From Pseudomonadota bacterium (GTDB lineage Bacteria; Pseudomonadota; Gammaproteobacteria; Pseudomonadales; Moraxellaceae), in NCBI GenBank assembly GCA_021781515.1, contig JAJXWR010000002.1, forward strand, positions 1 to 64,000: a DNA stretch of 64,000 nt, in the 5' to 3' direction. Shown in pieces: positions 45,987 through 64,000 of the stretch (its first letter is position 1; each line of letters begins with the position of its first letter). The notes beneath the pieces are model-generated. The model was not told the origin of the DNA. It made no database searches and saw nothing but the letters and a program-made list of their open reading frames with translations. Both the position numbers and the translations under genes were made by a program.

Positions 45987-46283
45987 TGTACCCAGATCAC
46001 AACAGGCTGTTTGCAGTCTATGATTGAATACAGCCATGTATTGCACAAACTGTATAAACCCAAGCATATCATCGGGGTTAGCCACTGCGCCGCTCGCCTG
46101 ATACGGGCGGGAAGCGACACCGTGGATAACCCGATTGTGGCACGGATAATTGGCAAGGGAATTACCGTCAATTTACAATAAATGAATGATCGTAACGCTA
46201 CGATCATATGCAATACGGGGAAGCGCCGATTGGCTGCGGCAAGAGACCCTCTTAAACTTGATGTAAATTTGTCTTCACCAATG

Positions 46284-46304
46284 GATCCACTTCAGAAGTG
46301 GATC
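46284..46304. repeat. perfect 10-bp-arm inverted repeat
   Basis: GATCCACTTC-A-GAAGTGGATC. Confidence 0.8.
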
Positions 46305-46643
46305 AACGGACAAAAGTATTTCAAAATACATGAGTTATGAATAAAAATATGAGCAAAGGCAAACCCGGCAAATCTGCTACACTCAAGCCATATGCTGTTG
46401 TCTGCCTGAGATAAATGGATAAAATCCTGGTATTACAATCTGACCTATTGATGATAGGTGTGGTACATTCAATAGTTTATTGCGCAAACATCGTATTTCT
46501 GCAAAAAATGGCACACATCATGCATATAATTCCCTGATTTTGCCTGAGCAGCAACAGTTATCCAGAGTTTGTGTTTTCTAAAAAATTCGATAAATCAATG
46601 CATATTACTTGCATTTAAAAATCAACCAAAATGAGTAAACACC

Positions 46644-47708
46644 ATGTTTGATGTGCCCTTAAAGAATTCACAAGAGTTTTACTCGACAATATTAAGTCAG
46701 TCTATTGCCGCACTTAAAATAAATACGTTTATGGATAATTTTGACGAAAAACACTTTAACACTGATGGAGTTGATCGCTCAAAAACATTCAACTCGGATT
46801 CATGCGCATTTTACTTTGACTGGTTCTTTAAAAATCATCCCCAACTGTGGAATGTTTATAGCATTCTTGATGATGAGACATCAAAATCCCTGTATGCCAA
46901 TTTAATTGCATTCAGACTCGCCAGCCATTTTTCTATTCGCATTCCCGTTGGTTTTTTTAACAAACCTGAGGCATTGGCAAAATATCGAGAAGCCGTTAAA
47001 TATACTGAAGGAAAAATAGAAACCAACGGCATGTATGGAAAACTCAAACATTATGATTTTATCTATAATGATCATCATTATAGATATGATGGTGTCGACT
47101 TGGAAAGTTATCTGTTCAGAAACCAGTATTTCTTCGATAGAAACGGAAAGAAAATCCAACCTGAACCAGGTGATTATGTTATTGATGGAGGTGCCTGTCT
47201 CGGAGATACTGCTCTGGTATTTTCCAATGCAGTAGGTCTGGAAGGAAAAGTGTTTTCTTTTGATCCTGTACGTGAAAACCTCGAAATCTTAAGATTCAAC
47301 ATAGAACAATTGCCTATAAGTAATGCAACCGCAATTCCCTACGGACTCTCTAATAAAGAATTTATCTGCAATCCTACACCGCTAGGCAGCTATGACCCTG
47401 GCTTCAGGGCCTTTAATGCACCAACACCATTACAAAAACTCGATAACCTGGTTAAGCAGGGTTCGATACCTCGAATTAATTTTATAAAACTTGATGTGGA
47501 AGGATCTGAGCTGGATGCTCTAGAAGGTGCCAAACAAAGCATTCAGGATTTTAAACCAAAACTCGCCATATCTCTTTATCATAACCCCGATGATCTTTTT
47601 TCAATTCCTTTGTACGTCAAGAAAACATTTCCATTTTATGATCTACATGTAGATCATTATACAATTCATAACGATGAAACCGTTTTATACTGCTCTCCAC
47701 GAGCATAA
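46644..47708 (+). CDS. FkbM family methyltransferase
   Basis: PEPGDYVIDGGACLGDTALVFSNAVGLEGKVFSFDPVRENLEILRFNIEQ; INFIKLDVEGSELDALEGAKQSIQDFKPKLAISLYH. Confidence 0.92.
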   Translation: MFDVPLKNSQEFYSTILSQSIAALKINTFMDNFDEKHFNTDGVDRSKTFNSDSCAFYFDWFFKNHPQLWNVYSILDDETSKSLYANLIAFRLASHFSIRIPVGFFNKPEALAKYREAVKYTEGKIETNGMYGKLKHYDFIYNDHHYRYDGVDLESYLFRNQYFFDRNGKKIQPEPGDYVIDGGACLGDTALVFSNAVGLEGKVFSFDPVRENLEILRFNIEQLPISNATAIPYGLSNKEFICNPTPLGSYDPGFRAFNAPTPLQKLDNLVKQGSIPRINFIKLDVEGSELDALEGAKQSIQDFKPKLAISLYHNPDDLFSIPLYVKKTFPFYDLHVDHYTIHNDETVLYCSPRA

Positions 47709-47763
47709 CATGCTGGACATGCTGCAATATCGCTGAGTTCAAAATTCATTCTGGAGTATTTTA

Positions 47764-49233
47764 ATGATTGAAAACTACAATATTCATGAAACCCTGGTTC
47801 AATCTGCCAATGGAAAAAGCCCTCTGATTCAGTTACTAAGAGACTCTTTTGATGAAGAATTCTATAAAAAGGCATTCCCGGAATGCCTCACAAAAGATGT
47901 TGAACCATTTCTCCATTATTTAATCTGGGGATTTAATGAACAAAAACTGCCAAACCCGCATAGAAATGTCATTAAAGAACTCATGAACAACCCTGAGGTT
48001 TCAAAATACTGTGGTTTTTCATTTAAAAACTACATTAATAATGATTATTCAAATGACAAAGCTGCCACCTATAATATCTATATCAAATTCCATGCGGCAT
48101 TTTACGAACGTATGCTGACTCATCGCATACAGGAAATCTATTTCCCAACAGAATGCCAGACCGCAAAAAAAATCATGGTGATTGTAGTCCCGGAAATTAA
48201 TTTTATGGGTGGTGGGGTTTATTCCCTTTTTTCTATTGCTAATACCATGCATACTCTTCGCCATCAACATGACTACAAAATACTTGTCATGACCCGGCCT
48301 AATTTCGTTTGTCAATCATTCTTCCGACAGATACACTTCAGGACTCAGGAAAATGTATTTCGTTTTGAACAAATTATCCACTGCGAATCAGCCGAAACAC
48401 TCTATATCCATATTCCTGAAGTTTTTGCCTCGACATTTATTCAAAGTCTGCATGCTGACGTTCTTGAGTACCTTAAAAAACGAAAAAATCTTTTCATCAA
48501 CATTGCAAATCAAAATATTCAGTTGATGCCTGAAAAAGAACAGTTCCAGAACCTGAGAGATATTGCAACGGAAATCACACAATCGGTTGCTCATCATGCC
48601 TACTTTAATCAAGAGTGTTCAAATCATTATAATTTACCCACAACGCTACTTCCAGCATACGTAGATATAAGCTCATATCCATCATCTAATTTTGATGAAA
48701 AAGAAAATCTGATTATTTACTCGCCTGATTACATGCCATGCAAACCCATAGTCCTTGAAAAATTAAAAGAACACCTTCCCCATTATAAGCTCGTTGAAAT
48801 CAACGGAATCACATTTGATCACTGTATCGAGCTTTCTACCCGCTGCCGTTTTGTGATTTCCTTTGGAGAAGGCTTTGACGGGTATTTACTCAATGGACTC
48901 CTGAAAAATGGCTGTGGGTTTGGCATATATAATGACCAGTTTTTTCCTGATCCCACCATGAAAGATTTCTACATTTTTTTTGACTCAGGCGAATCAATGA
49001 CTCAGCATATTGTTGAGAAAATCAAGCGATTAGAATCAGATCGGAATCTTTACGAAGAAATCAATAAAAAAGTTCTCGATATTTATAACCGTTTTTACAA
49101 TAAGGAAGAATACATTAAACGAATATCCAACCTGGTAAAACGTCAATTTGAACTGCGTCCCGCCTTGGCGCTCACCAAAATTGACACACCTTTGCTCACG
49201 GAAACGGCCCCACCGCATACCTGCGGGGTGTAG
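47764..49233 (+). CDS. probable glycosyltransferase
   Basis: IMVIVVPEINFMGGGVYSLFSIANTMHTLRHQHDYKILVMTRPN; C-terminal RFVISFGEGFDGYLLNGLLKNGCGFGIYND typical of GT-B donor-site region. Confidence 0.65.
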   Translation: MIENYNIHETLVQSANGKSPLIQLLRDSFDEEFYKKAFPECLTKDVEPFLHYLIWGFNEQKLPNPHRNVIKELMNNPEVSKYCGFSFKNYINNDYSNDKAATYNIYIKFHAAFYERMLTHRIQEIYFPTECQTAKKIMVIVVPEINFMGGGVYSLFSIANTMHTLRHQHDYKILVMTRPNFVCQSFFRQIHFRTQENVFRFEQIIHCESAETLYIHIPEVFASTFIQSLHADVLEYLKKRKNLFINIANQNIQLMPEKEQFQNLRDIATEITQSVAHHAYFNQECSNHYNLPTTLLPAYVDISSYPSSNFDEKENLIIYSPDYMPCKPIVLEKLKEHLPHYKLVEINGITFDHCIELSTRCRFVISFGEGFDGYLLNGLLKNGCGFGIYNDQFFPDPTMKDFYIFFDSGESMTQHIVEKIKRLESDRNLYEEINKKVLDIYNRFYNKEEYIKRISNLVKRQFELRPALALTKIDTPLLTETAPPHTCGV

Positions 49234-49802
49234 GCGTCAGTGAAAGGCACAAGGAAGTCGCCGGCGTGAAGCATGCGGTGCATTGTTTTCAAGATGGAAC
49301 CAAGGATTGCCGCTAATCGACTCCTCCGCAATTCGCTATGCCTGCAGGTGAGAATCACATCCTTCCCTTCCAGCGCTTTGCGATAACTTGCAACGGTTTT
49401 GGCTTGTGGTCGAAGGACTAGTGGTTCCGGAACTGTTTTAATCCCTTTTAGATCAGGGATCGATTCCGACGGTAACGGTGCGAACTCAATCGCACACCGT
49501 TATTGATATCCAATCGAAGCCTCATGAATTGGACGGCACAACTTCGAGAAGAAGGAGCTTCAGTCTTTTTACCGAGCTCCTGCGCCGACAAAACCTCGAA
49601 TCATGACTCAGAACTGCCGACCAATCACCGGTTACAACGCCGTGCCAGCAACCTCGCATGAAAACAGGGAATCGCCTTGCGCACACTCGCGAGGCCAGCA
49701 GAGAGAATGGCGAGTAGAGAGATAAAAAACACCCAGAGAACGGCAACTATGGGGTGAGCATGTTCAAGAGGCATCCCCGAAACAGCGCCAAATCTGGCGT
49801 TT

Positions 49803-49838
49803 CGCAGGCAATAAAAAAGGCCGGAGAGGTATCCGGTC
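49803..49838 (-). terminator. possible rho-independent terminator
   Basis: Minus strand AAGACCGGATACCTCTCCGGCCTTTTTT: GACCGGA/TCCGGCC stem (one mismatch) followed by T6; downstream of 50032-51566. Confidence 0.4.
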
Positions 49839-50031
49839 TTCGTTAATTGGTGATGCAATCGCCCCCTCACCTGCTGCTCCAACTTATTCTCTCAAAACAT
49901 GCGGATTCAAGTCAATGGGTTAGGATAATTTGTCCAATTCACACATCACAGCTTATAGAACCAAGAAGCTCAAAAACCCGTTGATCAGCAAGAATAGTAT
50001 TGCGGACTGGCAGGGCAACGGATTGTTCAAC

Positions 50032-50976
50032 TTACTGCGTACCGGCCTGACCTGCTTTCGCTCCATTATTCCACTGAGGCAAATCCAGTAACAAGTACCG
50101 TGGACGGCCATCACCAACACGGGTAACCATTGTTCGAATTTCTACTTGCTGATGAAGGTGCTGATTGATCAGATTAGCATCCTCAATGGCAGGTGACACC
50201 TTTCCAGCGACAACTTGACCTGTTCCAGTGATCTTGAATTCAAAGGTTCGCCGCTTCGGAAGAACACCTTGAAACTCTCCATGAAGCAGTTGCTCATCTT
50301 CGTGAAGGTTATCCTTGCTGATTCTTTCAAGACTCCGGCGAACCTGTCCGACATCAGTGAACCGGAATACTTGATTGCGATATTGCAAGGCACAAATAGC
50401 TTCGTTATCTGCCAGAGTACTAATGAAGGCTCGGACCTTGTCCAGTGCCCGCTGATTTAATTCAGACGCAGTGTCAGCAAGCAATTCATCGTTATCGTCG
50501 ATAGACCCCTGAAGCAAACTCTGAGTTCGCTCGATTGCGAGTTCTAGTGTCGTCTTTTCATCTATCGACAACTGCCCAGTGCGATATTCCTCAAATTCGA
50601 AACCGAACGAACCCATCGCTGTATTTGTAATCAGTAATTGATGCTGCTCCCTATTTGGAATAGGGCCTGTGGCCGCTAAACCACCGGAAAGCGAAGCAGC
50701 CACCGATGTCACGGTTTCGTTGAATGCACCAATAATCTTTATCCCAAAGTCTGCGAAGATTCCATAGCTGCCAACGACCGGACGTCCATTGAACGTTATG
50801 CGAGCACGTGCGGGTTCGCGCTCATTTATTTTCGCTTCAGAAATTCTGTGCTCGATCTCTTCCAATCTTGCAGTCAGACTGCCCAGATCAAGGACTTCGT
50901 CAATAGGTGTGCTCTCGATCATGCGCTGAAGAGCAGTTCGCTCGCCCAATAGCTGTACGAAATCTTGCCGAATCAT
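50032..50976 (-). CDS. uncharacterised protein, coiled-coil N-terminus, partner of DUF6932-like gene
   Basis: 314-aa ORF overlapping the next gene by ATGA; no family confidently recognised. Confidence 0.7.
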   Translation of the reverse strand: MIRQDFVQLLGERTALQRMIESTPIDEVLDLGSLTARLEEIEHRISEAKINEREPARARITFNGRPVVGSYGIFADFGIKIIGAFNETVTSVAASLSGGLAATGPIPNREQHQLLITNTAMGSFGFEFEEYRTGQLSIDEKTTLELAIERTQSLLQGSIDDNDELLADTASELNQRALDKVRAFISTLADNEAICALQYRNQVFRFTDVGQVRRSLERISKDNLHEDEQLLHGEFQGVLPKRRTFEFKITGTGQVVAGKVSPAIEDANLINQHLHQQVEIRTMVTRVGDGRPRYLLLDLPQWNNGAKAGQAGTQ

Positions 50977-51566
50977 ACAGGGACTCCTTGGCCGACCGAA
51001 TTGCCCAACTGTGCTCTTGCCAATGCCTCATTAACAGGTGCGAGATCAATCTGTACGTAGCCCTTCCATGCTTGGTTGCGCCGGTGACTCCACATGCTGT
51101 ACCAGTAGCTCGCTTGCCTCACCAATCGACTCGGAGCTTTGCCGAGATGTTCATAGTAAACATCAACAAAGTACGTATCCTTAAGTTCCTTATGCGAATC
51201 ACGACTAATCGGAAATAATTCTGGGAACGCCCGCTGGATATCCGTTTGGCTCTTGCCTGCAGGTAAATCGAAAAATGTCACAACATCAATATCATTTGGG
51301 GTGCGACCTTCGAGGATTTCAATGTTTTCAAGAAAACTCCCGTCCAACCACTGAAACCCACTAACCAATCCTGCGGTGTGGAGTGCAGCTCGATATTTCA
51401 AAAATCCCTCAAGAACTATTTTTCTTGGCGAGGTTTGCCCAAAGCGAAGGACAAAGTCCGTCAGCGAAACTGTGTATGGTGAACGTTCGGCAGAAGCTGG
51501 CAACTGCTCATCAATTGGAGGGATGAGGCCGAGTGAATTCCAAGACGGTAGCGCAACAGTATTCAT
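50973..51566 (-). CDS. DUF6932-like nucleotidyltransferase-fold protein
   Basis: FQWLDGSFLENIEILEGRTPNDIDVVTFFDLP matches a GSFxxN...RxPxDIDVVxF NTase signature; TYFVDVYYE; ATGA overlap with the downstream gene. Confidence 0.65.
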   Translation of the reverse strand: MNTVALPSWNSLGLIPPIDEQLPASAERSPYTVSLTDFVLRFGQTSPRKIVLEGFLKYRAALHTAGLVSGFQWLDGSFLENIEILEGRTPNDIDVVTFFDLPAGKSQTDIQRAFPELFPISRDSHKELKDTYFVDVYYEHLGKAPSRLVRQASYWYSMWSHRRNQAWKGYVQIDLAPVNEALARAQLGNSVGQGVPV

Positions 51567-51973
51567 TTGGTTGGATTGACTCGATCCCTATTTTGCAACC
51601 ACGATTTCGTATTATACCCTGCGAGTTCTGATCTGAAAACAACGAAAAAATTCGCCACCGTATTCTCCACTCTCCGAATCAATACAGTTTACTCTACCTA
51701 CCGGTACTGTCAGGTTAACTTTTTCAGGTGCACTTTATCGGACGCTTACTCTGATCTTTCCTTGAGGCATCGACAAGTGAATGAACCGGTTTTAGCTGTC
51801 TGAATGTAACATTATGCACGGATGATTTCCGAGCAAATAGAGAAAAATCCACTAGGGATCAGGAAATCTGAGATTGGTTCAAATTCCGTGATATTGCACA
51901 CGCCTATGCGTGTCAGCGCACTTTGCGAGTCTTTTTTTGAGCGTTGAGGTTGATTGTTTTTATTTCTATAGGA

Positions 51974-52447
51974 TTATCGAATCGATACAGGCAAAAACTG
52001 CTCCAGGATATCAGGAATGGTGATCAGCATATCTGCCTCACAAGCGATCTCACCGTTCACTAAACCAACACCATTGCCTTTACATATCCCCCTTTTCCAG
52101 GAAATGACTTCAGTCTTAATATCAAGGCGGTGGCCCGGTAACACTTCTTTACGAAAGCGTATTGTATGTTGTAACGCATGTGTAACTTTCCCTTTCAAGC
52201 CAGGCAGCGTTGTAATAGCTACGGTCAACATTTGCGCCATCGCTTCGAGCTGCAAAACACCCGGCATATTGGGATGACCCGGAAAATGCATTGGGAAATA
52301 CCATTCATTCAGAGACAGATTTTTATATCCATGCGCATAACGCCCAGGTAAAACCGCTTCAACATAATCAATCATCAAAAACGGATAACGATTAGGCTGA
52401 AATTCCTGCAGTTGTTGACCATTTAAACTAAATACACCCTCTGCCAT
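51974..52447 (-). CDS. FabZ-like 3-hydroxyacyl-ACP dehydratase
   Basis: RYPFLMIDYVEAVLPGRYAHGYKNLSLNEWYFPMHFPGHPNMPGVLQLEAMAQ. Confidence 0.92.
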   Translation of the reverse strand: MAEGVFSLNGQQLQEFQPNRYPFLMIDYVEAVLPGRYAHGYKNLSLNEWYFPMHFPGHPNMPGVLQLEAMAQMLTVAITTLPGLKGKVTHALQHTIRFRKEVLPGHRLDIKTEVISWKRGICKGNGVGLVNGEIACEADMLITIPDILEQFLPVSIR

Positions 52448-52458
52448 TTTTAACCTCG

Positions 52459-53679
52459 CTAACGAATATCAACCACCCGGGACAGTTCTGAAATCAACAA
52501 ATAGCCATCCCACACCAGATCCATATCAAGCGCCGAGCCTATCGATACAATTCGATCAATACCAACCACTCGATGTTTGAGCAGAATGTTGCGCCAAAAA
52601 TCATGACTGTAGCCAAAACAGGTCAATGTTTGAACCCGTGTTGTCACAGACTTTAATATCGAAACCAGTTGATCTTCATCAGCCATACATTCATAGAAAT
52701 AACCATAACGTCCTCTAAGCTCCACCCATCGTATCGGTAATTGACGCAGTTGCGCCCTAAAAACCAGAGGTTCATCATACCAATCTACTGAATCAAGCTC
52801 ATCCAGTAATACGGCATCCTTGCACGCCTGAAGTAATTTTTCTGAACCATGCAAAGGTTCACGAGGATAGCGCCGTAAAACAACAACTTTCAACGCATTC
52901 CAGAAATATTGCTGCGCATCGGCAATCAATGCTTGGCTCGAACCCGTCCAACAGATCACATGCGGTGATGAGCAAGCATTCTGATCCATCAAATAGGTAT
53001 CATTATAAAAACCTTCCGCAATCCGAGCCAGTGACTCTTGATCTTGAAGAAGCAGGGAATCTGCATGCACAACACAAAAGGAAGTTCGATCAGCAAAATG
53101 GATTTCACGAGCACGAACAGGGATCGGAAATTGACGAAAGCTTTGAATCGTATCATCCCCCCCCCAAACAATACGAGCATCGCAGAGGTCGGATAATCTA
53201 CGATTGATCGTTGCATCATGAGCATATTGAATACAGAGAATTCTTGAACGTAATGGAATAAAAACAGCCTGACAAAGCAGATCATTCAAAATTTCACAAG
53301 CCAGGTTCAACTGAGCAAAAAACGTTGAGGGCAATCGAACAACATTAGCATTCCCCGCAAGAAGCCCAAAAGCAAGCGAGTACAAACTATTAACAGGTAC
53401 ATTGCCTGGCGTGACATGAAACACTAACCCAAGACCTAGGCGAAGCAAGGAATCCTGATATTGTTTTTGTAAACGCTGAAGATTCGCACGACGCAGCCAA
53501 AATGCAAACGTTACCAGATCGGGATAACGCTTTGCTGATAAACTCTGCATAATCTGTTGGGAAAAGCATTCCAAAAACAAGCAGACAATTGCATCAAAGG
53601 GTACGGAAATACCGGGCTCATCAAGAACAGCGATATCGCCGCAAAGAATCGTTATGGCGTCAAAAGGTAGCATGGACAT
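52459..53679 (-). CDS. LuxC-like acyl-CoA/acyl reductase
   Basis: GLVFHVTPGNVPVNSLYSLAFGLLAGNANVVRLPS; FYNDTYLMDQNACSSPHVICW. Confidence 0.88.
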   Translation of the reverse strand: MSMLPFDAITILCGDIAVLDEPGISVPFDAIVCLFLECFSQQIMQSLSAKRYPDLVTFAFWLRRANLQRLQKQYQDSLLRLGLGLVFHVTPGNVPVNSLYSLAFGLLAGNANVVRLPSTFFAQLNLACEILNDLLCQAVFIPLRSRILCIQYAHDATINRRLSDLCDARIVWGGDDTIQSFRQFPIPVRAREIHFADRTSFCVVHADSLLLQDQESLARIAEGFYNDTYLMDQNACSSPHVICWTGSSQALIADAQQYFWNALKVVVLRRYPREPLHGSEKLLQACKDAVLLDELDSVDWYDEPLVFRAQLRQLPIRWVELRGRYGYFYECMADEDQLVSILKSVTTRVQTLTCFGYSHDFWRNILLKHRVVGIDRIVSIGSALDMDLVWDGYLLISELSRVVDIR

Positions 53680-54754
53680 CACTACACCCTCGCAACTCAG
53701 CTCTAGGGACACGGCCAAGAACCTGAAAGTAGGTTCCCTTTAATCCACAGGAACAGTCATCTTCACCAACGATGCAACCTAAGTCTTCAGTAAGAATTGC
53801 GAAACCTGGATAACTGCGCGGCAACAAGGATATCAGTTGAATAAGTCCCGTGCCTCCTTTTGGCAATATCGAAAAGTCTTGATCATTGCGAATGAGAATT
53901 TCTGAAAAACTTGAAGCATGTAAATATCCTTCATGGCATTCAACAAAAATCGAACCCGTTTGTTCAACCATTCCGTAGTAGTTATGAATAGAGTGTAATC
54001 CTGTCAGTTCACGCAATACTTCCTTAAACTGCCTATGTTCTACCGCTTCATCCTGCATTTTTTTCCAACCACCACCATGCAAAAGAATGCCTTGATTCAT
54101 CGAAACCCTCAGACCTTGCTTAAGCATTGGCTGAACCCAGTATTTCCATATCATAAAAGTAAAACCAAATAAAAAAATCCTCTGCCCCTCATATTTCTTA
54201 AGAAAGCGCTGTACACGATCGAAAGACAACTTCATATCCGCATCCAATGCAAACTCAATCGGCCGACCAAAAAGTTGAAACCCCCGAATAGCCGCTGCTC
54301 GGGCAGAAAACATGTGCGGATTTTCCAGGACATCTGCCGAATCAATGATCAACATGGGTAAACGGCTTTTACCAATCAATGCGCCCATGATATGATTCAG
54401 AACCTTAGTTTGCAGCAACGCCGTTTCTCGATCGAGAAAAATTTTTGACACTTGCTGGCCTGTGGTTCCAGAAGAGGTCATCGTCTTGACAATCTGTCCA
54501 CGGTCAATGCTCATAAGTTCCATTTCTTTGAACATGCGTACGGGGATAAATGGAATCCGCTCCAATGTTGCCGCATCAAACGATGCATCTGTAAATACTT
54601 TATCCACAACCAGACGATAAGCACGACATGCCAACATATGATGTGCATGCAACTCCTGACAAACCGCAGTCATTATCTGACGCTTTTCTTGTCGACCTAG
54701 TGCAAAGGCTGGCAGCGAAAAAAGAGGCGACCAATCTATTGGATTCGTGTTCAT
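53660..54754 (-). CDS. LuxE-like acyl-protein synthetase
   Basis: FKEMELMSIDRGQIVKTMTSSGTTGQQVSKIFLDRETALLQTKVL; IHNYYGMVEQTGSIFVECHEGYLH; LGRVPRAELRGCSD. Confidence 0.9.
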   Translation of the reverse strand: MNTNPIDWSPLFSLPAFALGRQEKRQIMTAVCQELHAHHMLACRAYRLVVDKVFTDASFDAATLERIPFIPVRMFKEMELMSIDRGQIVKTMTSSGTTGQQVSKIFLDRETALLQTKVLNHIMGALIGKSRLPMLIIDSADVLENPHMFSARAAAIRGFQLFGRPIEFALDADMKLSFDRVQRFLKKYEGQRIFLFGFTFMIWKYWVQPMLKQGLRVSMNQGILLHGGGWKKMQDEAVEHRQFKEVLRELTGLHSIHNYYGMVEQTGSIFVECHEGYLHASSFSEILIRNDQDFSILPKGGTGLIQLISLLPRSYPGFAILTEDLGCIVGEDDCSCGLKGTYFQVLGRVPRAELRGCSDVHATF

Positions 54755-56196
54755 CAGCTCCTATCCGTGCTTAATTCTGCATAAAGAATCTTTCCGGACT
54801 CATTCCGTGGAATAGCATTAATGTGAATTACCTGAAAAACCGAGTTATGGATAGCGAGATGTTCTGCAACGTTAATCAGCATCTGTCTATGTTCATGCGC
54901 CAACGCCGTCGTATAAATCTGAATCTGATTATCATTGCCCACAGTAGCACATTCATATCCTAGAGAACCCAGGAGCGCATCAATATCCGCAAGATTAATT
55001 CGGTTACCAAAAATTTTAACAAATCTTTTTTTGCGACCGACAATAAAATAAAAGCCATCCTCGTCTCGATAAGCCATATCCCCCGTTCTCAGGTGACCTA
55101 GGTTAAGATCCGGGAGATTGAGATCGTCAACACTTGCTGCCGTGCCTAGTGAGACATTCGCTCCAGAATAACAAAGTTCGCCCTTAACATGCGCACTCTC
55201 AATACAATGCCCTTCTTCATCTTCAAGCCAGAAACTTCCACCTGGTATAGCCAAACCGATACTACCAGCCTTTGTTAAAACAGCATCACACGGCAAAACA
55301 GCCATACGTGCAGTCGCTTCAACTTGACCGTACATGCAGTAGAAGCGAATATTCCGATCCCGACACAACAAGGCAAATTTTTTTACCAAATCAATGTGCA
55401 GAGCCCCTCCCGCCTGGGTCATCACACGCAAAGAAGGAAGCGTCATTCGCTCAAAGCGTAATCGATCTAACATCTCATAGGTATAGGGCACTCCGGCAAA
55501 GGAAGTCACTGCTGCATTTTTCATAAGTGCCCAAAAAGATTTTTCCATGAGCGAAGCTTCATTTAAGACAATCGAACAACCCTGACTTAAATGAGTATTC
55601 AAAACAGACAAACCATAAGTATAGTGCATGGGTAAGGTTGTGACAGGACGATCCGAAGGCTGAATATTCAGAATATCGCAAATGGCAGCCGTATTGGCAT
55701 GGAGATTCTCGTATGACTGTCTCACAAATACGGGACTGCCTGTGCTGCCTGAGGTGGTCATTAACAAGGCCAGTTCTTCGGCGATTGGGTAGCTTGCCAC
55801 TTCCTCTGAAACCAACAATTGATAGCCATGAATCCCCACAGATAACCTATGAAATCCATGAGGACAATCATTACTATCAGGCAGCCATATATACTTTGGT
55901 CTATATGCAAAGAGCAATCGAAAAAAATACTCTTTTTGAATCCTGTCGCTTAATAAAACAGGAACACAACGAGCACGTAGAGCTGCAATATAACCAATGA
56001 CTGAAGCTATTGAGTTACGGCATGATAAAAATACCAGAGTTCTTTTAGAAAGGACATTTTTCAAGCTGTCAGAAAGGTGCAATAATTGTCTATAGGTTAT
56101 ATTTTCTACACCATCCAATAACGCAATTCTTGCATCAAACTTATCTAACTCATCAAAAAAAAAAGAACCGCTAAAATTACTCATTGATAAAAACAT
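54754..56196 (-). CDS. AMP-dependent acyl/aryl synthetase-ligase
   Basis: ELALLMTTSGSTGSPVFVRQSYENLHANTAAI; FYCMYGQVEATARMA; YRDEDGFYFIVGRKKRFVKIFGNRINLADID. Confidence 0.93.
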   Translation of the reverse strand: MFLSMSNFSGSFFFDELDKFDARIALLDGVENITYRQLLHLSDSLKNVLSKRTLVFLSCRNSIASVIGYIAALRARCVPVLLSDRIQKEYFFRLLFAYRPKYIWLPDSNDCPHGFHRLSVGIHGYQLLVSEEVASYPIAEELALLMTTSGSTGSPVFVRQSYENLHANTAAICDILNIQPSDRPVTTLPMHYTYGLSVLNTHLSQGCSIVLNEASLMEKSFWALMKNAAVTSFAGVPYTYEMLDRLRFERMTLPSLRVMTQAGGALHIDLVKKFALLCRDRNIRFYCMYGQVEATARMAVLPCDAVLTKAGSIGLAIPGGSFWLEDEEGHCIESAHVKGELCYSGANVSLGTAASVDDLNLPDLNLGHLRTGDMAYRDEDGFYFIVGRKKRFVKIFGNRINLADIDALLGSLGYECATVGNDNQIQIYTTALAHEHRQMLINVAEHLAIHNSVFQVIHINAIPRNESGKILYAELSTDRS

Positions 56197-56425
56197 TATA
56201 TTTCCTGAGTATATCAATGCCTTTTGTATAAGAACCAAAATCTACAATATCGTCAGTTTCAAGCACAATATTAAAAGAGTCTTCAATTGCTGTAATCATC
56301 CCCATATGGCCCACAGAATCCCACTGAGGAACACATTGATACACAAACTGATCCGTGAGTTGTTCCTGGCCAACTCCAAAACAATCCATAAAAACACGGT
56401 TGTAAACCTGTAATTTATTCATCAT
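56177..56425 (-). CDS. acyl carrier protein
   Basis: 82 aa; QCVPQWDSVGHMGMITAIEDSFNIVLETDDIVDFGSYTKGIDIL contains the DSxGHM phosphopantetheine serine context. Confidence 0.9.
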   Translation of the reverse strand: MMNKLQVYNRVFMDCFGVGQEQLTDQFVYQCVPQWDSVGHMGMITAIEDSFNIVLETDDIVDFGSYTKGIDILRKYNVFINE

Positions 56426-56960
56426 GTTTCCTTATGATTTATTTACAAAATAACCCGTTTATCCATACCAGCCCTCATTGGTCGCCCAGGGCAATCATAC
56501 CAAGATGTCTATCATGTAAGGATTTAAACTCTTCCAACCCATTGAGTCAATTCCAATTGACATCCATTCTTCAATCTATGCCCCCATGCCTGCATAGCAA
56601 ATATTTCCTATTTTAACCTCAGTAATAGAATTACATGTAAACACTAGATTCTCATCAAGATAATTGCGATCCGTAACGACAACATGCGTCGTTATGGCAC
56701 ACCATTGACTCAATTAATCTAAAATAAAGTAATACTAACCAGCATAAAAGACAGACAATATTCATTTTTGCCTGATCTTGACTGCATCGCCTTAATATTT
56801 TTCAGAGTGCCTGTGCAAAAAATATTGTGCAAATATTCAAAATCAAAATAATAAAATTCACTCAAACAACCAGAAACATTTGTTTCAACACAAACCGACT
56901 CAATAATATTTATAATAATTTCAAAAACAATTTTACCTAACAGAAGAAATGGTCGTCAAA

Positions 56961-57956
56961 TCAAGACAGTACCGTATTCGTTTTACTACCATCCAGAAAG
57001 CTCAGCACAGCACTTCCAATCCCACTACCTACTAAACCATAATATTCAAGCAAATACCGATAATCCGCAGTAACACCATACTGATCAGGCAACCCCAATC
57101 TGAGTAATGGTGGGGCCGCAGCATACAGGGATCGATGCTCTGCAACAGCGCTTCCAAGTCCGCCAATCACGCTATGCTCCTCCACAGTCACTACAAGCTT
57201 TGAATGAGAATAACACTGTTCTAGTGCGTTACCATCTAATGGCTTTACTGTATGCATATTCCAAACTGAAACAGACACATTTTTCTCTTCAAGCAACTTT
57301 GCCGCAAGCAGTGCTTCATGCACCATGGAACCATGTGCAATAATAGAAACATCCGTACCTGTCCTTAGTTGTATGGCTTGACCAATGCTGAAATCATAAT
57401 CTGCACTATAGACGATTGGTGTATTGATGCTACCTGTCAAGCGAATATACACAGGCCCTTCGTGCGCAGCCGCTGCATAAACCACTTTCAGGATTTCAGC
57501 ACAGTCAGCTGGTGCAATCACCGTCAGATTAGGGATTGAACGTATGACGGCCAAATCTTCAGTCCCATAATGCGAGTTTCCAAGAAAACCCATGGCCAGG
57601 CCGGAGCCAATAGCAACCGCCTTGACATTCATCTGCATATAACCCATGTTCATACGAATCTGTTCACAGGCGCGCATCGCAATAAATGGGGCAAATGAAG
57701 TTGCAAATGGGACGAAACCTTCCTTAGCCAATCCCGCCGCCACACCGATCATATTCTGCTCGGCAATTCCTGTGTTTATAAACTGTTCAGGATAGGCCGC
57801 AGCAAACCGGTCTAACCCTGAGGACTTACCCAGATCTGCTGATAACACCATCAAATTGGATAAATTTTCTGCCAATGCCAGAATGGACTGTCCAAACATC
57901 GCCCGCGAACCCAAGCGAGACCACTGTCGCACACTGCTTGGGTTTATGTCGAGCAT
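56961..57956 (-). CDS. transketolase, C-terminal subunit
   Basis: MVLSADLGKSSGLDRFAAAYPEQFINTGIAEQNMIGVAAGLAKEGFVPFATSFAPFIAMRACEQIR. Confidence 0.95.
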   Translation of the reverse strand: MLDINPSSVRQWSRLGSRAMFGQSILALAENLSNLMVLSADLGKSSGLDRFAAAYPEQFINTGIAEQNMIGVAAGLAKEGFVPFATSFAPFIAMRACEQIRMNMGYMQMNVKAVAIGSGLAMGFLGNSHYGTEDLAVIRSIPNLTVIAPADCAEILKVVYAAAAHEGPVYIRLTGSINTPIVYSADYDFSIGQAIQLRTGTDVSIIAHGSMVHEALLAAKLLEEKNVSVSVWNMHTVKPLDGNALEQCYSHSKLVVTVEEHSVIGGLGSAVAEHRSLYAAAPPLLRLGLPDQYGVTADYRYLLEYYGLVGSGIGSAVLSFLDGSKTNTVLS

Positions 57957-58774
57957 GAGGTTTTTCCATCTAATTCCATCACAGCCTGTTCATACCAATT
58001 TTTGGTCAACCGAGCATGATGCCAATCATTATTGTTCTCCATAAATGAAATTCCTTTTCCCTTAACAGTGCGTGCGATCACCACATGTGGCTGATCTGCC
58101 AATGTACATGAACAAAATGCCTGATACAAATTATCAATGTCGTGACCATCCACTTCCTGGACGTGCCAACCAAATTGTCGCCACCGATCGGCCATGTTTT
58201 TCAAATTAATGACACGTTCGGTTTTGCCGTCGCTTTGATAGCCATTCATATCAACAATGGCCGTTAAATTATCGAGTTGGTATTGAGCTGCAAGCATCAT
58301 TGCCTCCCATACCGCTCCCTCGTTACACTCACCATCGCCCAGCAAAACATAAATATGGTACGCTTGCCTGTGGCGTTTTGCCGCCAGTGCCACGCCAACG
58401 GCCATTGAAAGCCCATGCCCCAGACTGCCATTTGAGGACTCAATACCAAACTCCATATTCATCACGGGATGAGCGATTAGATCACTTTCATTCTGTAAAA
58501 ATGTCTTGAGTTTTTCAGCCGAGATAAAGCCCACTGCATGCAAGGCAGAAAAGTACCCCAAAACTCCGTGCCCCTTGCTCAAAATATATCGATCACGATC
58601 TGTCCAGCGTGGGTTTTTCGGATCCAGCCGCATAATAGCGCCAAAGAGAATCGCATTAATTTCAACCATCGATAATCCGCCACCCAAATGCGCACTCATG
58701 TTGCATTGATGGCTCATCTCGATAATCATGCGTCGCATCCGCAAAGCAAATGCCCTGATTTTTTGTGCATCCAT
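57944..58774 (-). CDS. transketolase, N-terminal (ThDP-binding) subunit
   Basis: YILSKGHGVLGYFSALHAVGFIS; GSLGHGLSMAVGVALAAKRHRQAYHIYVLLGDGECNEGAVWEAMMLAAQYQLDNLTAIVDMNGYQSDG. Confidence 0.95.
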   Translation of the reverse strand: MDAQKIRAFALRMRRMIIEMSHQCNMSAHLGGGLSMVEINAILFGAIMRLDPKNPRWTDRDRYILSKGHGVLGYFSALHAVGFISAEKLKTFLQNESDLIAHPVMNMEFGIESSNGSLGHGLSMAVGVALAAKRHRQAYHIYVLLGDGECNEGAVWEAMMLAAQYQLDNLTAIVDMNGYQSDGKTERVINLKNMADRWRQFGWHVQEVDGHDIDNLYQAFCSCTLADQPHVVIARTVKGKGISFMENNNDWHHARLTKNWYEQAVMELDGKTSCST

Positions 58775-58783
58775 CGCTATTCC

Positions 58784-59536
58784 TTAAAAGAATTGCCCAC
58801 CATCCACCCGTATAATCTGCCCGTTTATATATGAAGACAGATCGCTTGCCAGAAAAAGCGCTACTTTCGCAATTTCTTCAGGCTGAGCACACCGATGCAC
58901 GGAAGTTCGAGCCACTATCTTTTCAATAACCGTTGGATCCATATGATCCAGCATTTTCGTGTCTGTGACATTTGGGGCAATCGCATTCACGCGAATATTG
59001 AAACTGGCCAGTTCAGCTGCAATAACCCGTGTTGCATGATTCAATGCCGCTTTGCTTGCACCATAAGCCAAGGAACCAGGATCTGCACATAAACCTGCCA
59101 TCGAACTGATATTAATAATACTTCCCGAGCGACGTCGAGCCATCTGTCTCGAAACATTCTGAATAAGCGCAATTTGGGCAAAAAAATTAACATCAAAAAC
59201 CATCCTCAGTTCCTTTAACGAGGTCATATGTAATAAAGAACCTTGGGCAACAGCGGCATTGTTAACCAGAATATCAATGGGCGTTTGACGTACGTTAATT
59301 TCCTGTAAAGCCAACTTGCACGCCTCAGAGTCCGTTAAATCAAAACAAACTGAACGAATGGATCGACCCGTTCGATCTGACAACTCCCGAATCCATTGTT
59401 CAAAGGCCTCATCCGTCTGACGCACACACGCATAAATATCAGCACCCTGCTCCGCAAAAACCTGCACGAGCGAACGTCCGATCCCTCCATGACTCCCGGT
59501 AATCATGGCCACCTTACGGTTCAACATGAGTTGCAT
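58784..59536 (-). CDS. short-chain dehydrogenase/reductase
   Basis: RKVAMITGSHGGIGRSLVQVFAEQGADIYACVRQ; YGASKAALNHATRVIAAELASFNIRVNAIAPNVTDT; YINGQIIRVDGG. Confidence 0.94.
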   Translation of the reverse strand: MQLMLNRKVAMITGSHGGIGRSLVQVFAEQGADIYACVRQTDEAFEQWIRELSDRTGRSIRSVCFDLTDSEACKLALQEINVRQTPIDILVNNAAVAQGSLLHMTSLKELRMVFDVNFFAQIALIQNVSRQMARRRSGSIINISSMAGLCADPGSLAYGASKAALNHATRVIAAELASFNIRVNAIAPNVTDTKMLDHMDPTVIEKIVARTSVHRCAQPEEIAKVALFLASDLSSYINGQIIRVDGGQFF

Positions 59537-59993
59537 CTTTTTCTCCATCATAAAGACGATCGATGGGCCCACGGCTGAGGACCTCTTCAAGAAGACTCAG
59601 ATCCCCGGGAAATACATCATTCCCCGTTGGAAACAAGGGCAACCCAGTTAACCCAAGCCTTTGCAAAACTTCAGTTTTTCCGTAATACCAACACAACAGA
59701 TTTTGCACAAACAAGGCACTGAGCCGCACATGTTTTATGCTGACTTTTCGAAATACAGCCATCGAATCCGCTTGGTCCAACTCAACAAAGGGGCATGTGT
59801 ATTGCAGATTCGCAACCTCATCAAGAGCGTCCACAAACTTCAAGAGTTCACTTATCCACTGAATGTAAGAAGCATATTCGATCCATTCCCGGACAACCGC
59901 AGAATTTTCAACTGCAGTCTCGGGAAGAAGCATAGCGATCAACCTGGAAAACACACGCTGTTCATGGATTGAAATCTGATACTCCATACGCAA
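59514..59993 (-). CDS. possible gluconate 2-dehydrogenase subunit 3-like small subunit of GMC oxidoreductase
   Basis: Immediately upstream-paired with the GMC gene; CPFVELDQADSMAVFRKV...LFVQNLLCWYYGKTEVLQRLGLTGLPLFPTGNDV fits the small-subunit pattern. Confidence 0.5.
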   Translation of the reverse strand: MRMEYQISIHEQRVFSRLIAMLLPETAVENSAVVREWIEYASYIQWISELLKFVDALDEVANLQYTCPFVELDQADSMAVFRKVSIKHVRLSALFVQNLLCWYYGKTEVLQRLGLTGLPLFPTGNDVFPGDLSLLEEVLSRGPIDRLYDGEKDATHVEP

Positions 59994-59999
59994 ATTGCC

Positions 60000-61616
60000 C
60001 TATAAGATTTTATTCAGGTGTTTTTTAATCGCATCGGCAAGATACAGACTGATTGCCTGCAAGGTTGATGCCGGGTTCACCGCTCCAGAGGTTACAAAGA
60101 CACTACTGTCCACCACAAACAGATTGGGAACATCATGCGTTTGTCCGATCACGTTAACAACCGATGCCTGTGGATCCATACCCATGCGTGTCGTGCCCAT
60201 CAAATGCCAACCCGAATTTCGAACCGGACCTTGGGCAAATACTTTATATGCTCCAGCAGCATTCAACACTTCTTTGGCTCGCTCCAATCCATGAGCTAGC
60301 ATTTTCTTCGTGTTTTCGCTTAGCCGATAATGAATTTCAGGAACAGGAATACCAAAAGCATCCACCTGCTGCTTATCCAGGGTCACCCGATTATTTTCAT
60401 CTGGAAGATCTTCGGTAATCACCGCAATTCCGAAATTGTGTCCCAGACGTTGTTGAATCGACTGAAGTTGATTTTGTCCCCAGGGAATCTCACGCCGATA
60501 CACCCCTGACAGCGCAATTTCAACCGGATTCGAACCACGAAGCACATGCAGGGTATAACCGCGTACAAAATCTCTGGCCGTATCCGTTTCATAAAACTGA
60601 TGGCTATAGATGCAACATCCCTGAGGGCCACGATGTCCTTGTAGATCCGGCTCAAAGAGCCCTTCGACATACCCTAAAGGATGGAGCATCAAATTCTTGC
60701 CGACCAGACCTGAACGGTTCGCCAGTCCCTCCGGAAACTGAGAAGACACTGAATTTAACAACAATCGTGGTGTACCCACTCCATTGCACGCCAAAACGAC
60801 CATTCGTGCACGTTGGTGATGTTCCACACCTTGATCATCAAAATATAATACCCCATTCACTCGACCCTGTTTATTCAAAGTAATCTGATGCACCCGAGCA
60901 TGCGTCCTGAGTTGCACGCCACGCTGCAACGCTGTTGGCCAATAACTGATATCCACACTGGATTTAGCCCCTTGCGGACACCCCGTATTACAAGGACCTA
61001 AATTAATACATGGGGATCGACCTCGATAAGGTCGAGTAATGATCGCCGAATACGATGGCCACCAATGCCACCCCAATTGATTGAATGCGTGCGCCAGCAA
61101 TTCCCCCCCTCTTCCCAACGGAATCGGAGGTAATAAATCCTGAATTAATGGATAGGCAGGGTCACCGGAAAGACCCGACACACCCATCATACGGTCATTG
61201 ATCGAAAAATAGGGTTCCAGATCGTCGTAACCTAAGGGCCAGTCTTCAGCGACTCCATCCAAAGAACGTACTTTAAAATCCGAAGGGTGGAAGCGAGGAA
61301 AATGGCCACTGAATAAAATGGTGCTACCTCCCACGGCATTGAAATTAGCAATTGCAATCGGCGAATCCTGATCATTAATTGGGTAATCCGCCCGCAACTG
61401 ACGCACATTCGGCGAAGGATGCGCATGGTGCCACTTGGATCGTTCCCAGTCGGACCGGGTGGATGGATAGCGAGTCGCATCCATCCAATCCCCTTGCTCC
61501 ATACACAAAATATTCAGGCCTGAATCACTCATTCTCCACGCAAACGCCGCCCCCGCCGCTCCAGCACCGACAATGAGCACATCAACTTCATCTGTCATAA
61601 GCGCACAATGTGCCAT
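60000..61616 (-). CDS. GMC family oxidoreductase
   Basis: DEVDVLIVGAGAAGAAFAWRMSDSGLNILCMEQG; FNAVGGSTILFSGHFPRF; NSGWHLMGTTRMGMDPQASVVNVIGQTHDVPNLFVVDSSVFVTSGAVNPASTLQAISLYLAD. Confidence 0.94.
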   Translation of the reverse strand: MAHCALMTDEVDVLIVGAGAAGAAFAWRMSDSGLNILCMEQGDWMDATRYPSTRSDWERSKWHHAHPSPNVRQLRADYPINDQDSPIAIANFNAVGGSTILFSGHFPRFHPSDFKVRSLDGVAEDWPLGYDDLEPYFSINDRMMGVSGLSGDPAYPLIQDLLPPIPLGRGGELLAHAFNQLGWHWWPSYSAIITRPYRGRSPCINLGPCNTGCPQGAKSSVDISYWPTALQRGVQLRTHARVHQITLNKQGRVNGVLYFDDQGVEHHQRARMVVLACNGVGTPRLLLNSVSSQFPEGLANRSGLVGKNLMLHPLGYVEGLFEPDLQGHRGPQGCCIYSHQFYETDTARDFVRGYTLHVLRGSNPVEIALSGVYRREIPWGQNQLQSIQQRLGHNFGIAVITEDLPDENNRVTLDKQQVDAFGIPVPEIHYRLSENTKKMLAHGLERAKEVLNAAGAYKVFAQGPVRNSGWHLMGTTRMGMDPQASVVNVIGQTHDVPNLFVVDSSVFVTSGAVNPASTLQAISLYLADAIKKHLNKIL

Positions 61617-61652
61617 GGCATGTAAAAAACTCCAATTTTATTATTCGACTAA

Positions 61653-62105
61653 CTAACCCACCAGCTAAAGCTGGTGGGTTAGTATTACGGAATGATAGTC
61701 CGGATACGCATCGGCTAAACGACGCATCCTACTCAGGTTCCAGCTTGAATTCATCATTCGGATTCGATTCAAAGTAAGGATCCAAATATTCCCGGATCAT
61801 CTCCCCCATCATCTGACCTACCGTCGCACAAAAATACCCCTTGGCCCAAAAGTGCCACCCCCTGTACCTTTTCTTTATGTGCGGTATCTTAATCCTGCGG
61901 ACAACTCAGCAAAATATGCAGGGGATCCTTGGGCTCATTACCCCTTTCTCAATCCTGAATCTCACACGTCTCACGGACCAACTCCCTTATCCGCTCCGCA
62001 ACCTCGCCCCTCAAAACTTCTTAACGATACTTCGTTACCCACACAAAACGGTACTCAAGCTGAAACACCGATCGCCGCTAAAGCCGGTGGTTTAACCCTT
62101 ATGTT
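61653..62105 (-). mobile_element. degenerate IS200/IS605-type element (TnpA Y1 transposase remnant)
   Basis: Perfect 13-bp hairpin CTAACCCACCAGC-TAAA-GCTGGTGGGTTAG (61653-61682); minus-strand fragments HFWAKGYFCATVGQMMGEMIREYLDPYFESNPNDEFKLEPE* (stop near 61729) and FQLEYRFVWVTKYR*EVLRGEVAERIRELVRET with stops/frameshifts; second TTTAGC hairpin-like end near 62070-62095. Confidence 0.8.
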
Positions 62106-62209
62106 GGAAAATCACTACGCAACAGACAGATCAACCGATTAAACAAACAATCCTCATTAATTTCCTGATTTCAATTAATGTCACCAGCAAGACATCGCAA
62201 TATAATCAA

Positions 62210-63439
62210 TTAAGAAAGATCAGCAATACATGCACTAATCCGATCAATCACATCCAATTCAAGATCAGGATATATCGGTAAACACAGAACTTTTCTTGAT
62301 GCTTCCATGGCAACCGGAAGCAGATCCAGACGAGCAGAAGGAAGCCCCCGGTACATGGAAAATTCCGGAATCAATGGATAAAAATAGCGCCGGGGGTGTA
62401 TTTTTCTGTTTTTAAGCTGATGATATAATTCATCTCGACTTAAAGAATAAGCCTCTTCGACCAGGATTGGAAAATAGGAATAATTTGGAGTTCGCTCTCC
62501 AACACCTTTCAGACACGTTATGCCCTGAATTGCAGCCAGTCTCTGCCGATAGCGCTGATCAATAGTCCTACGTTTTTCAATGTAGGAATCAATATATTTT
62601 AATTGCATTAACCCCAGCGCTGCATTGAATTCGCTCATTTTTCCGTTGATCCCAGGAGCCACGACCGTTGTTTCATTCACAAAGCCAAAGTTTTTTAACT
62701 GATCAATACGATTTTTGGTTTTTCGGTCTGGACAAACAATCGCCCCCCCTTCAAAGGTATTAAAGATCTTAGTCGCATGAAAACTCAAAACAGACAGATC
62801 ACCATAGTTCAGAATACTTCCATGCGCATTATTCACGGCAAACGCATGAGCAGCATCATAGATTAAACGAAGATTATAAGTATCAGCGATCGTCTGCAAG
62901 GCATCAACATCACAAGGATGTCCATAGCAATGAACTGGCAAGATTGCCGTGGTCTGTGGCGTAATGGCCGCCTCAATTTTCCCGGGATCAAGATTCAAGG
63001 TATGTTGATCAATATCCACAAAAACGGGTTTAATTCCATTCCAGAGTAAAGCATGCGATGTTGCCACAAAAGAATAGGGCGTAGTAATCACTTCACCAGT
63101 AATGCGTAGTGCCTGCAGCGCAGTTACCAAGGCCAAAGTGCCGTTGGCAAAAAGACAGATATGTTCGACACCTAAATAAGAACACAAAGCCTCTTCAAAC
63201 TGCTGATGGAATGGCCCGGCATTAGTTAATTGGCGATTGTTCCAAATGGTTTCCAGCATGGGCAAAAATTCAGAAAATGGTGGCAATACCGGCTTTGTCA
63301 CGAGAATTTCTTCCTCGTTGACACTGTCAGTATATGAAATTGATCGATGCTGCTTCATGGGTATCACCCCTTCAGACTGGACGCGGATCACCGAAACAGG
63401 ATTGCCATTAAAAGTTTTATATTTCATACTGACTGACAT
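62210..63439 (-). CDS. DegT/DnrJ/EryC1/StrS-type PLP aminotransferase
   Basis: AGPFHQQFEEALCSYLGVEHICLFANGTLALVTALQAL; PVHCYGHPCDVDALQTIADTYNLRLIYDAAHAF; LSFHATKIFNTFEGGAIVC. Start probably downstream, at MKQHRSISYTDS or nearby. Confidence 0.92.
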   Translation of the reverse strand: MSVSMKYKTFNGNPVSVIRVQSEGVIPMKQHRSISYTDSVNEEEILVTKPVLPPFSEFLPMLETIWNNRQLTNAGPFHQQFEEALCSYLGVEHICLFANGTLALVTALQALRITGEVITTPYSFVATSHALLWNGIKPVFVDIDQHTLNLDPGKIEAAITPQTTAILPVHCYGHPCDVDALQTIADTYNLRLIYDAAHAFAVNNAHGSILNYGDLSVLSFHATKIFNTFEGGAIVCPDRKTKNRIDQLKNFGFVNETTVVAPGINGKMSEFNAALGLMQLKYIDSYIEKRRTIDQRYRQRLAAIQGITCLKGVGERTPNYSYFPILVEEAYSLSRDELYHQLKNRKIHPRRYFYPLIPEFSMYRGLPSARLDLLPVAMEASRKVLCLPIYPDLELDVIDRISACIADLS

Positions 63440-63846
63440 TTAGTGTACCCTCGCAGTTGGCAGCGATAACGGCCTTGACCAGTTTATCTGCAAAAAAAAT
63501 GCCACAATGCGAACCGTACATCTCGAATATACACCCTATTCCCTGAGTATAGCTTTAATTCTATACGTTGCCTTGTTCAATACCTCTACACCCATGAACA
63601 AAACCGATGACCGTGGACGCCATTTATCTGCAACTGATTCATTCTTCAGGTGAAAATCCCACGGTATCGACTGGAACAGCGGACATTTTTCTAAATGATG
63701 CACCCCGAATCAGGGTTTTCAGGGTGGCACGGCAGCGTGCTCACTCCGACAGAGGCAGACGATCAACCATGTAAAGCGCAAAGAGCAAAAACTTATGCAG
63801 AGCTAACCCTGCCATTTACCCACAAAATGGCTATTCCAGCAGCCTA

Positions 63847-64000
63847 CTACGCAAGAGATACCCTGCGCACAACATTTGTAGTTGGACGTAGCCACGCCAC
63901 ATAATTTGATGTTCCGGCGGTAAGTCCGATTTGCGACCGAGGCATCCACCCCATTGAGAGACTCGTAGAACCAAGTATTATAGGCTCATCAATTTTTTTG
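63847..64000 (-). mobile_element. second remnant of IS4-family transposase 3' end (runs to window edge)
   Basis: Minus strand VLRVSQWGGCLGRKSDLPPEHQIMWRGYVQLQMLCAGYLLRS; about 85% nucleotide identity by eye to 7499-7630, same orientation. Confidence 0.65.

Follow-up and report, generated by a model that had tools for sequence, protein, structure and literature searches.

Introduction

The closest known kinds of gene set to the one described here, a ten-gene run on the minus strand of a Moraxellaceae genome (assembly GCA_021781515.1), are the tetronate genes of Vibrio cholerae O1 and a flagellar cluster of Dickeya. The DNA that was analysed, hereafter the window, comprises positions 1–64,000 of the forward strand of contig JAJXWR010000002.1. 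In V. cholerae O1, perosamine carries 3-deoxy-L-glycero-tetronate as its N-acyl group, and deletion of wbeL abolishes the O1 antigen; RfbKLMNO, the relative that has been studied best, makes a C4 hydroxy acid, RfbN contains a LuxE domain, and VC0249-0252 encode RfbL, an iron alcohol dehydrogenase, RfbN, and an acetyltransferase. In Dickeya zeae, a transketolase-containing form (LuxC/LuxE/FadD/TktAB/FabG/acyl carrier protein [ACP]) lies between fliA and fliC, and the flagellar islands of Aeromonas group II and Enterobacteriaceae carry ACP, LuxE, LuxC, and ligase genes. Luciferase-free LuxC/LuxE-like genes are common in surface-glycan islands, where the default annotation calls them “fatty acid” genes. 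On balance, we favour the reading that the window holds a horizontally acquired pathway whose product is a small acyl group with several hydroxyls, formed by LuxE/LuxC reduction and two-carbon extension by a transketolase and destined for a surface glycan of flagellin or of O-antigen or capsule type.

Comparison with described systems

The window operon resembles V. cholerae rfbKLMNO in its ACP, AMP ligase, LuxE plus LuxC reductase, and oxidoreductase and, as predicted below, in a 4-amino sugar acceptor and a surface-glycan destination. In V. cholerae, however, LuxE and LuxC are fused, an iron alcohol dehydrogenase replaces the short-chain dehydrogenase/reductase (SDR), and transketolase, GMC pair, and FabZ are lacking; conversely, no iron-containing alcohol dehydrogenase is encoded in the window operon, which has the SDR in its place. 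A treponeme locus carries consecutive genes for an ACP, an AMP ligase, an iron alcohol dehydrogenase, and a LuxE-LuxC fusion. With the Dickeya cluster, the window shares LuxC, LuxE, AMP ligase, split transketolase, FabG/SDR, ACP, FkbM, and a VioA-type aminotransferase, all in one low-GC insert; unlike the window operon, that cluster lacks GMC, small subunit, and FabZ, lies beside fliC in a flagellar cluster, and has been described as a gene list only. The Aeromonas group II islands carry the core acyl module (there ACP, 3-oxoacyl-ACP reductase, AMP synthetase, LuxE, and LuxC) within a flagellin glycan island but lack transketolase, GMC, and FabZ.

The luciferase fatty-acid reductase (LuxC-LuxE, PDB 7xc6) comprises homologous enzymes with identical catalytic cysteines. 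The preliminary description of this DNA had noted the lack of luxAB, and indeed no LuxA, LuxB, or LuxD is encoded in the window operon, whose substrate is probably a small acid; the NCBIfam equivalog cut-offs were not reached by either LuxE (72.5 of 550 bits) or LuxC (41.1 of 750 bits). The GMC large subunit and its subunit-3-type partner recall the FAD-dependent fructose/glucose dehydrogenase complex, although no open reading frame (ORF) for that complex’s cytochrome c subunit adjoins GMC. The dihydroxyhexanoyl pathway of Flavobacterium psychrophilum was rejected as a precedent; it employs 3-ketoacyl-ACP synthases instead. In the literature, chiefly open-access, no pathway containing the transketolase was found to have been characterised, nor one with the GMC/FabZ extension. 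Of the outcomes that the preliminary description had set against its own proposal, gene neighbourhoods marking a known O-antigen sugar pathway hold by half: the surface-glycan context is a known one, whereas the transketolase form matches no pathway that has been characterised.

The ten-gene operon

All ten ORFs and gene kinds given in the preliminary description were confirmed on the minus strand at 51974–61616 of the window by Pfam and NCBIfam domain calls, orthologues, and conserved motifs:

60000–61616, minus strand: GMC oxidoreductase, fructose/glucose FAD-dehydrogenase large-subunit type (PF05199/PF00732)
59514–59993, minus strand: small subunit, gluconate 2-dehydrogenase subunit 3 type, 159 aa (orthologues match PF13618)
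58784–59551, minus strand: SDR (FabG-like) of the transketolase-linked SDR clade (Pfam and tree; likely start ATG 59551 or 59548)
57944–58774, minus strand: transketolase N half, thiamine diphosphate-binding (PF00456; best PDB match 6yak, a split transketolase)
56961–57956, minus strand: transketolase C half of the LuxE-linked clade (PF02779/PF02780, Transket_pyr and Transketolase_C; tree; active-site residues)
56426–56960, no strand: AT-rich gap of 535 bp separating two gene blocks (transketolase C half and ACP)
56177–56425, minus strand: ACP, 82 aa (WDSVGH motif; orthologues 40–64% identical)
54754–56238, minus strand: AMP ligase, probably of acyl-ACP ligase type (PF00501, 2.9e-39; likely start ATG 56196)
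53660–54754, minus strand: LuxE-like acyl-protein synthetase (PF04443, 6e-49; RGCSD)
52459–53718, minus strand: LuxC-like acyl reductase (PF05893, 8e-28; true start probably ATG 53679 or 53673)
51974–52447, minus strand: FabZ-like dehydratase (PF07977, FabA/FabZ; catalytic His and Glu retained)

The expected active-site motifs were found in LuxE, LuxC, FabZ, GMC, and both transketolase halves: RGCSD at the LuxE C-terminal cysteine and DQNAC (DQ-AC) in LuxC, both aligning with their counterparts in PDB 7xc6, HFPxxP...E in FabZ, GWH...VNP in GMC, and GDG plus IAEQN in the transketolase. The best PDB matches of GMC were the large subunits of fructose and glucose dehydrogenases (6.5e-63), and it is 56–68% identical to its orthologues in other ten-gene loci, in every one of which the small subunit adjoins it. 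The window small subunit has no Pfam match of its own; the Curvibacter orthologue (L121) scores 29.8 bits to PF13618, above the cut-off. ACP likewise has no significant Pfam match, and WDSxGH is kept in 7/7 ten-gene loci. The two transketolase ORFs overlap by 13 bp, and the gap between the C half and ACP means that the run may form two transcription units rather than one; a promoter-like match lies at the edge of the gap, but such matches are no commoner in this region than in shuffled sequence.

Distribution and gene order

A contig scan with a five-sequence LuxE alignment recovered at least 572 relatives. The best 80 were retrieved and, together with four loci from an earlier search, scanned for relatives of the window proteins. 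As these 84 LuxE loci are the best LuxE matches, many from metagenome-assembled genomes (MAGs) and from several phyla, the fractions are not population estimates. LuxC was present in 82, AMP ligase in 81, ACP in 72, SDR in 58, both transketolase halves in 36, FabZ in 26, and GMC with the small subunit in 6.

The complete ten-gene set was recovered from six further loci spanning several classes in two phyla (alpha- and betaproteobacteria and Bacteroidota), namely a Sphingobacteriia MAG (L069), Azonexus hydrophilus (L070), a betaproteobacterial MAG (L079), an Emcibacteraceae MAG (L102), Curvibacter lanceolatus (L121), and a Methylocystaceae MAG (L123). Identities to the window proteins ranged from 29% (small subunit) to 79%; FabZ, at 71–79% in all six, is dedicated to the ten-gene set. 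Five of the six loci are ordered ACP-ligase-LuxE-LuxC-FabZ-GMC-small-SDR-TKN-TKC (TKN and TKC being the transketolase halves), L069 reads SDR-TKN-TKC-ACP-...-GMC-small, and the window reads GMC-...-TKC-ACP-...-FabZ. This shared cyclic order, recurring permuted in six other genomes, is far above chance. Across the window and the six loci, the circle is cut at differing points, as if via tandem copies or a circular form.

The ten-gene set also recurs, in a different layout, on plasmid pRlX3 of Rhizobium beringeri, and the ten best matches to the transketolase C half in a plasmid search were the same ten Rhizobium plasmids that carry the Rhizobium LuxE matches. GMC was dropped as a pathway marker: it had no orthologue above 38% identity in 274 sampled genomes of the class, and those of its 52–56% identical plasmid relatives that were checked sit mostly in loci for sugar uptake or catabolism. 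Among 294 Treponematales searched for LuxE, one transketolase-linked locus (G500) came up.

Some LuxE loci differ in composition. Two LuxE/LuxC pairs with one or two transketolase pairs occur in L066, L081, L105, L119, and L138, which could mean two extension rounds. The treponeme loci L189-L192 contain ACP, a metallo-beta-lactamase-fold hydrolase, LuxE, and mostly LuxC, with no transketolase, and adjoin a CoA-transferase-like gene. A Salmonella enterica plasmid (CP053580; L155) encodes an acyl-protein synthase, an AMP-binding protein, and a PaaK-like ligase near an HlyD/peptidase ABC transporter.

Phylogeny of the transketolases and SDRs

The transketolase C-half tree contained 61 rows, including 19 control split transketolases, the Carboxydothermus split transketolase, and human transketolase. 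The LuxE-linked C halves formed a single starred clade (100/99) that crosses phyla and is separate from all controls, with the seven from ten-gene loci as a starred subclade inside it. The transketolases of L020 (G273) and L078 fell among the controls, so both were rejected as examples of linkage and the count was reduced from 36 to 34 of the 84 loci. Every linked transketolase shares the strand of the nearest LuxE; most lie less than 7 kb from it, usually within the order SDR-TK-TK-ACP-ligase-LuxE-LuxC. In the SDR tree, the transketolase-adjacent SDRs fell in one starred group of 46 rows, with 17/30 other SDRs on the opposite side, setting them apart from the SDRs of most modules without transketolase. 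The co-occurrence of LuxC, LuxE, and ACP with a split transketolase, for which the preliminary description had proposed a search, is upheld: these genes and the AMP ligase gene travel as a unit.

H461 and D469 (Escherichia coli numbering), the latter a known acceptor-specificity position, are G and L in the window C half, and both residues are lost in every module C half. The split transketolase is not the only one in the genome, which encodes a full-length transketolase on contig 12.

Genomic context of related loci

The neighbours of the ten-gene loci are mostly flagellar, pseudaminic-acid (Pse), or capsule-type genes. In Curvibacter, the set lies between motB and flhB, in the order motB/flhB, FkbM, PglD-like acyltransferase, ten-gene set, DegT; in the Methylocystaceae MAG, it is adjoined by a flagellin, a Maf glycosyltransferase, a PseB-like dehydratase, a DUF4910 protein, and an AAC(3)-type N-acyltransferase; in the Emcibacteraceae MAG, a NeuB/PseI gene directly precedes it; and in the Sphingobacteriia MAG, capsule-type sugar genes were recognised by eye nearby. 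PglD-like acyltransferases occur in 17/84 LuxE loci, the Rhizobium set contains PglD_N/hexapeptide ORFs, and a surface-sugar marker or DegT was found in 51/67 long loci. A precedent for acyl exchange is Campylobacter jejuni Cj1295, which is tied to the swap of a pseudaminic-acid acetyl for a dimethylglyceryl group and which we take to be a DUF4910-like protein.

Masses of flagellin glycans

The glycan of Aeromonas AH-3, whose module lacks a transketolase, has a mass of 1491 Da, the sum of 376 + 2x162 + 2x203 + 283 + 102 Da; as these parts fully account for it, no fatty chain is present. The parts include an unidentified 102 Da moiety and a Pse derivative of 376.14 Da. Replacing one acetyl of Pse5Ac7Ac (316.127) with C4H6O3 gives 376.148, so that the reported value fits a dihydroxybutyryl-type acyl group, an equal mass resulting from any other C2H4O2 change. 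For the 450.2 Da flagellin glycan of Treponema denticola, replacement of one acetyl of Pse5Ac7Ac with C7H12O5 gives 450.185; a 2-methoxy-4,5,6-trihydroxyhexanoyl group has reportedly been described on this flagellin.

The genomic island and neighbouring genes

The operon lies in a genomic island with several further genes:

46000–64000, no strand: low-GC genomic island, flanked by ubiD and dksA and ending on the right just past the window
62210–63439, minus strand: DegT aminotransferase, DesI/VioA type, a probable amino-sugar partner (best PDB match 2po3)
46644–47708, plus strand: FkbM methyltransferase, a probable partner (TIGR01444, 68.4 bits, above the cut-off)
47764–49233, plus strand: 489-aa protein, glycosyltransferase-like by eye only (no Pfam family; predicted fold pLDDT 37)

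GC content is 38–49% from ∼46 kb rightward and 49–56% to the left of it within the window, ubiD and dksA are only ∼1.2 kb apart in two congeners that lack the island, and a LuxE search of 36 sampled genomes from this genus and family gave no match. On these grounds, the island is an acquired one. The ten-gene set is mobile.

DegT and FkbM are 68% and 55% identical, respectively, to the DegT and FkbM proteins adjoining the Curvibacter set. DegT scores 295.7 bits on the DesI model, below its cut-off of 650; its best matches are nonetheless dTDP-4-keto-6-deoxyhexose aminotransferases of the DesI/VioA type, and the genome encodes an RmlB able to feed it. These two points speak against amination of the pathway product by DegT, as the preliminary description had suggested, and make it more likely that the enzyme produces a 4-amino sugar that receives the acyl product.

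On contig 105 of the same genome (L223), two ∼700-aa flagellins are adjoined by FleQ and a tetratricopeptide-repeat GT41 glycosyltransferase, which would make flagellin one possible acceptor. Also inside the island, at 50032–51566 on the minus strand, are a DUF6932 protein (PADLOC candidate PDC-M63A, 1.3e-11) and a 314-aa protein (weak PDC-M32A), possibly a defence or toxin-antitoxin-like pair.

Proposed pathway and alternatives

The step from acid to aldehyde to ketol envisaged in the preliminary description is plausible, and a fuller scheme can be proposed from the gene content. LuxE would activate a small acid, probably dicarboxylic or hydroxylated, by attaching one carboxyl to the LuxE cysteine and would pass it to LuxC for reduction to an aldehyde; the split transketolase dedicated to the set would append a two-carbon ketol unit taken from a central ketose; the SDR would reduce the new ketone; and the FAD sugar-dehydrogenase pair (GMC and small subunit) would oxidise one hydroxyl. 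The AMP ligase would load the acid onto ACP, where FabZ could dehydrate a beta-hydroxyacyl form, and the acyl group would then be transferred to an amino sugar; in this genome, the acceptor is probably a 4-amino-4,6-dideoxyhexose supplied by the DegT enzyme. The steps and their order, the substrates, and the acceptor are all inferred. That the locus encodes, specifically, an undescribed route to chain-extended polyhydroxy acyl groups on amino sugars, in which LuxE/LuxC form a semialdehyde, the transketolase adds two carbons, and SDR, GMC, and FabZ set the final pattern, is a tentative proposal that we regard as possible but doubtful.

Several observations count against an acyl group built by this route for a surface glycan. 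The flg genes are ∼30 kb from the operon, the flagellins are on a different contig, and Pfam-type scans of the island ORFs found no dedicated acyltransferase, a trait of rfbKLMNO that several related loci have. The Rhizobium set adjoins a TonB siderophore receptor rather than a glycan island, over half of the 84 LuxE loci have no transketolase, and LuxE and the AMP ligase are two activating enzymes with no evident division of labour. H461 and D469 are also lost in most control split transketolases without a LuxE link; their loss was therefore rejected as proof of a special substrate and is at most consistent with an unusual acceptor.

The 535-bp gap and the many genomes in which LuxE modules and split transketolases each occur without the other would suit two separate neighbouring functions serving the same glycan, with the split transketolase, SDR, and GMC making an unusual ketose-derived sugar and the ACP, ligase, LuxE, LuxC, and FabZ making an acyl group. 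G273, whose LuxE genes are 8 kb from a transketolase belonging to a different clade, points the same way. Such a division is nevertheless rather unlikely given that the LuxE-linked transketolases share a single clade from which the controls are absent and usually keep to the conserved gene order. Flagellar-island papers on Enterobacteriaceae, Aeromonas, and Dickeya have suggested a fatty chain, and the single genes are homologous to fatty-acid enzymes; the AMP ligase and ACP would then load a fatty acid, LuxE/LuxC would yield a fatty aldehyde, and a lipid would be placed on the glycan as a “liposugar”. This appears distinctly improbable, as the AH-3 parts leave no fatty acyl, V. cholerae RfbN makes a C4 acid precursor, and no role would be left for the transketolase or the sugar-dehydrogenase-like GMC. 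Of the two products named in the preliminary description, a surface-glycan decoration agrees with the neighbours of related loci, whereas a lipid-like or long-chain product is unlikely in view of the V. cholerae acid and the Aeromonas mass. A diffusible small molecule (a signal, siderophore-like compound, or alpha-hydroxyketone) in place of a surface decoration is the least probable of these alternatives and very unlikely: the Rhizobium beringeri copies, beside their siderophore receptor, one glycosyltransferase, and one methyltransferase, would accord with it, but most ten-gene loci have flagellar, Pse, or capsule neighbours, and most long loci carry a surface-sugar marker or DegT.

Implications

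If the favoured reading of a small hydroxylated acyl group on surface glycans is true, LuxC/LuxE-like genes would represent a general toolkit for small hydroxy-acyl decorations, and a distinct transketolase lineage would form carbon-carbon bonds on non-standard aldehydes. Under the more tentative chain-extension proposal, the transketolase form would also explain acyl groups like the one reported for T. denticola flagellin. Several unexplained surface-glycan masses would become testable, and the pathway could explain odd groups on bacterial surface sugars.

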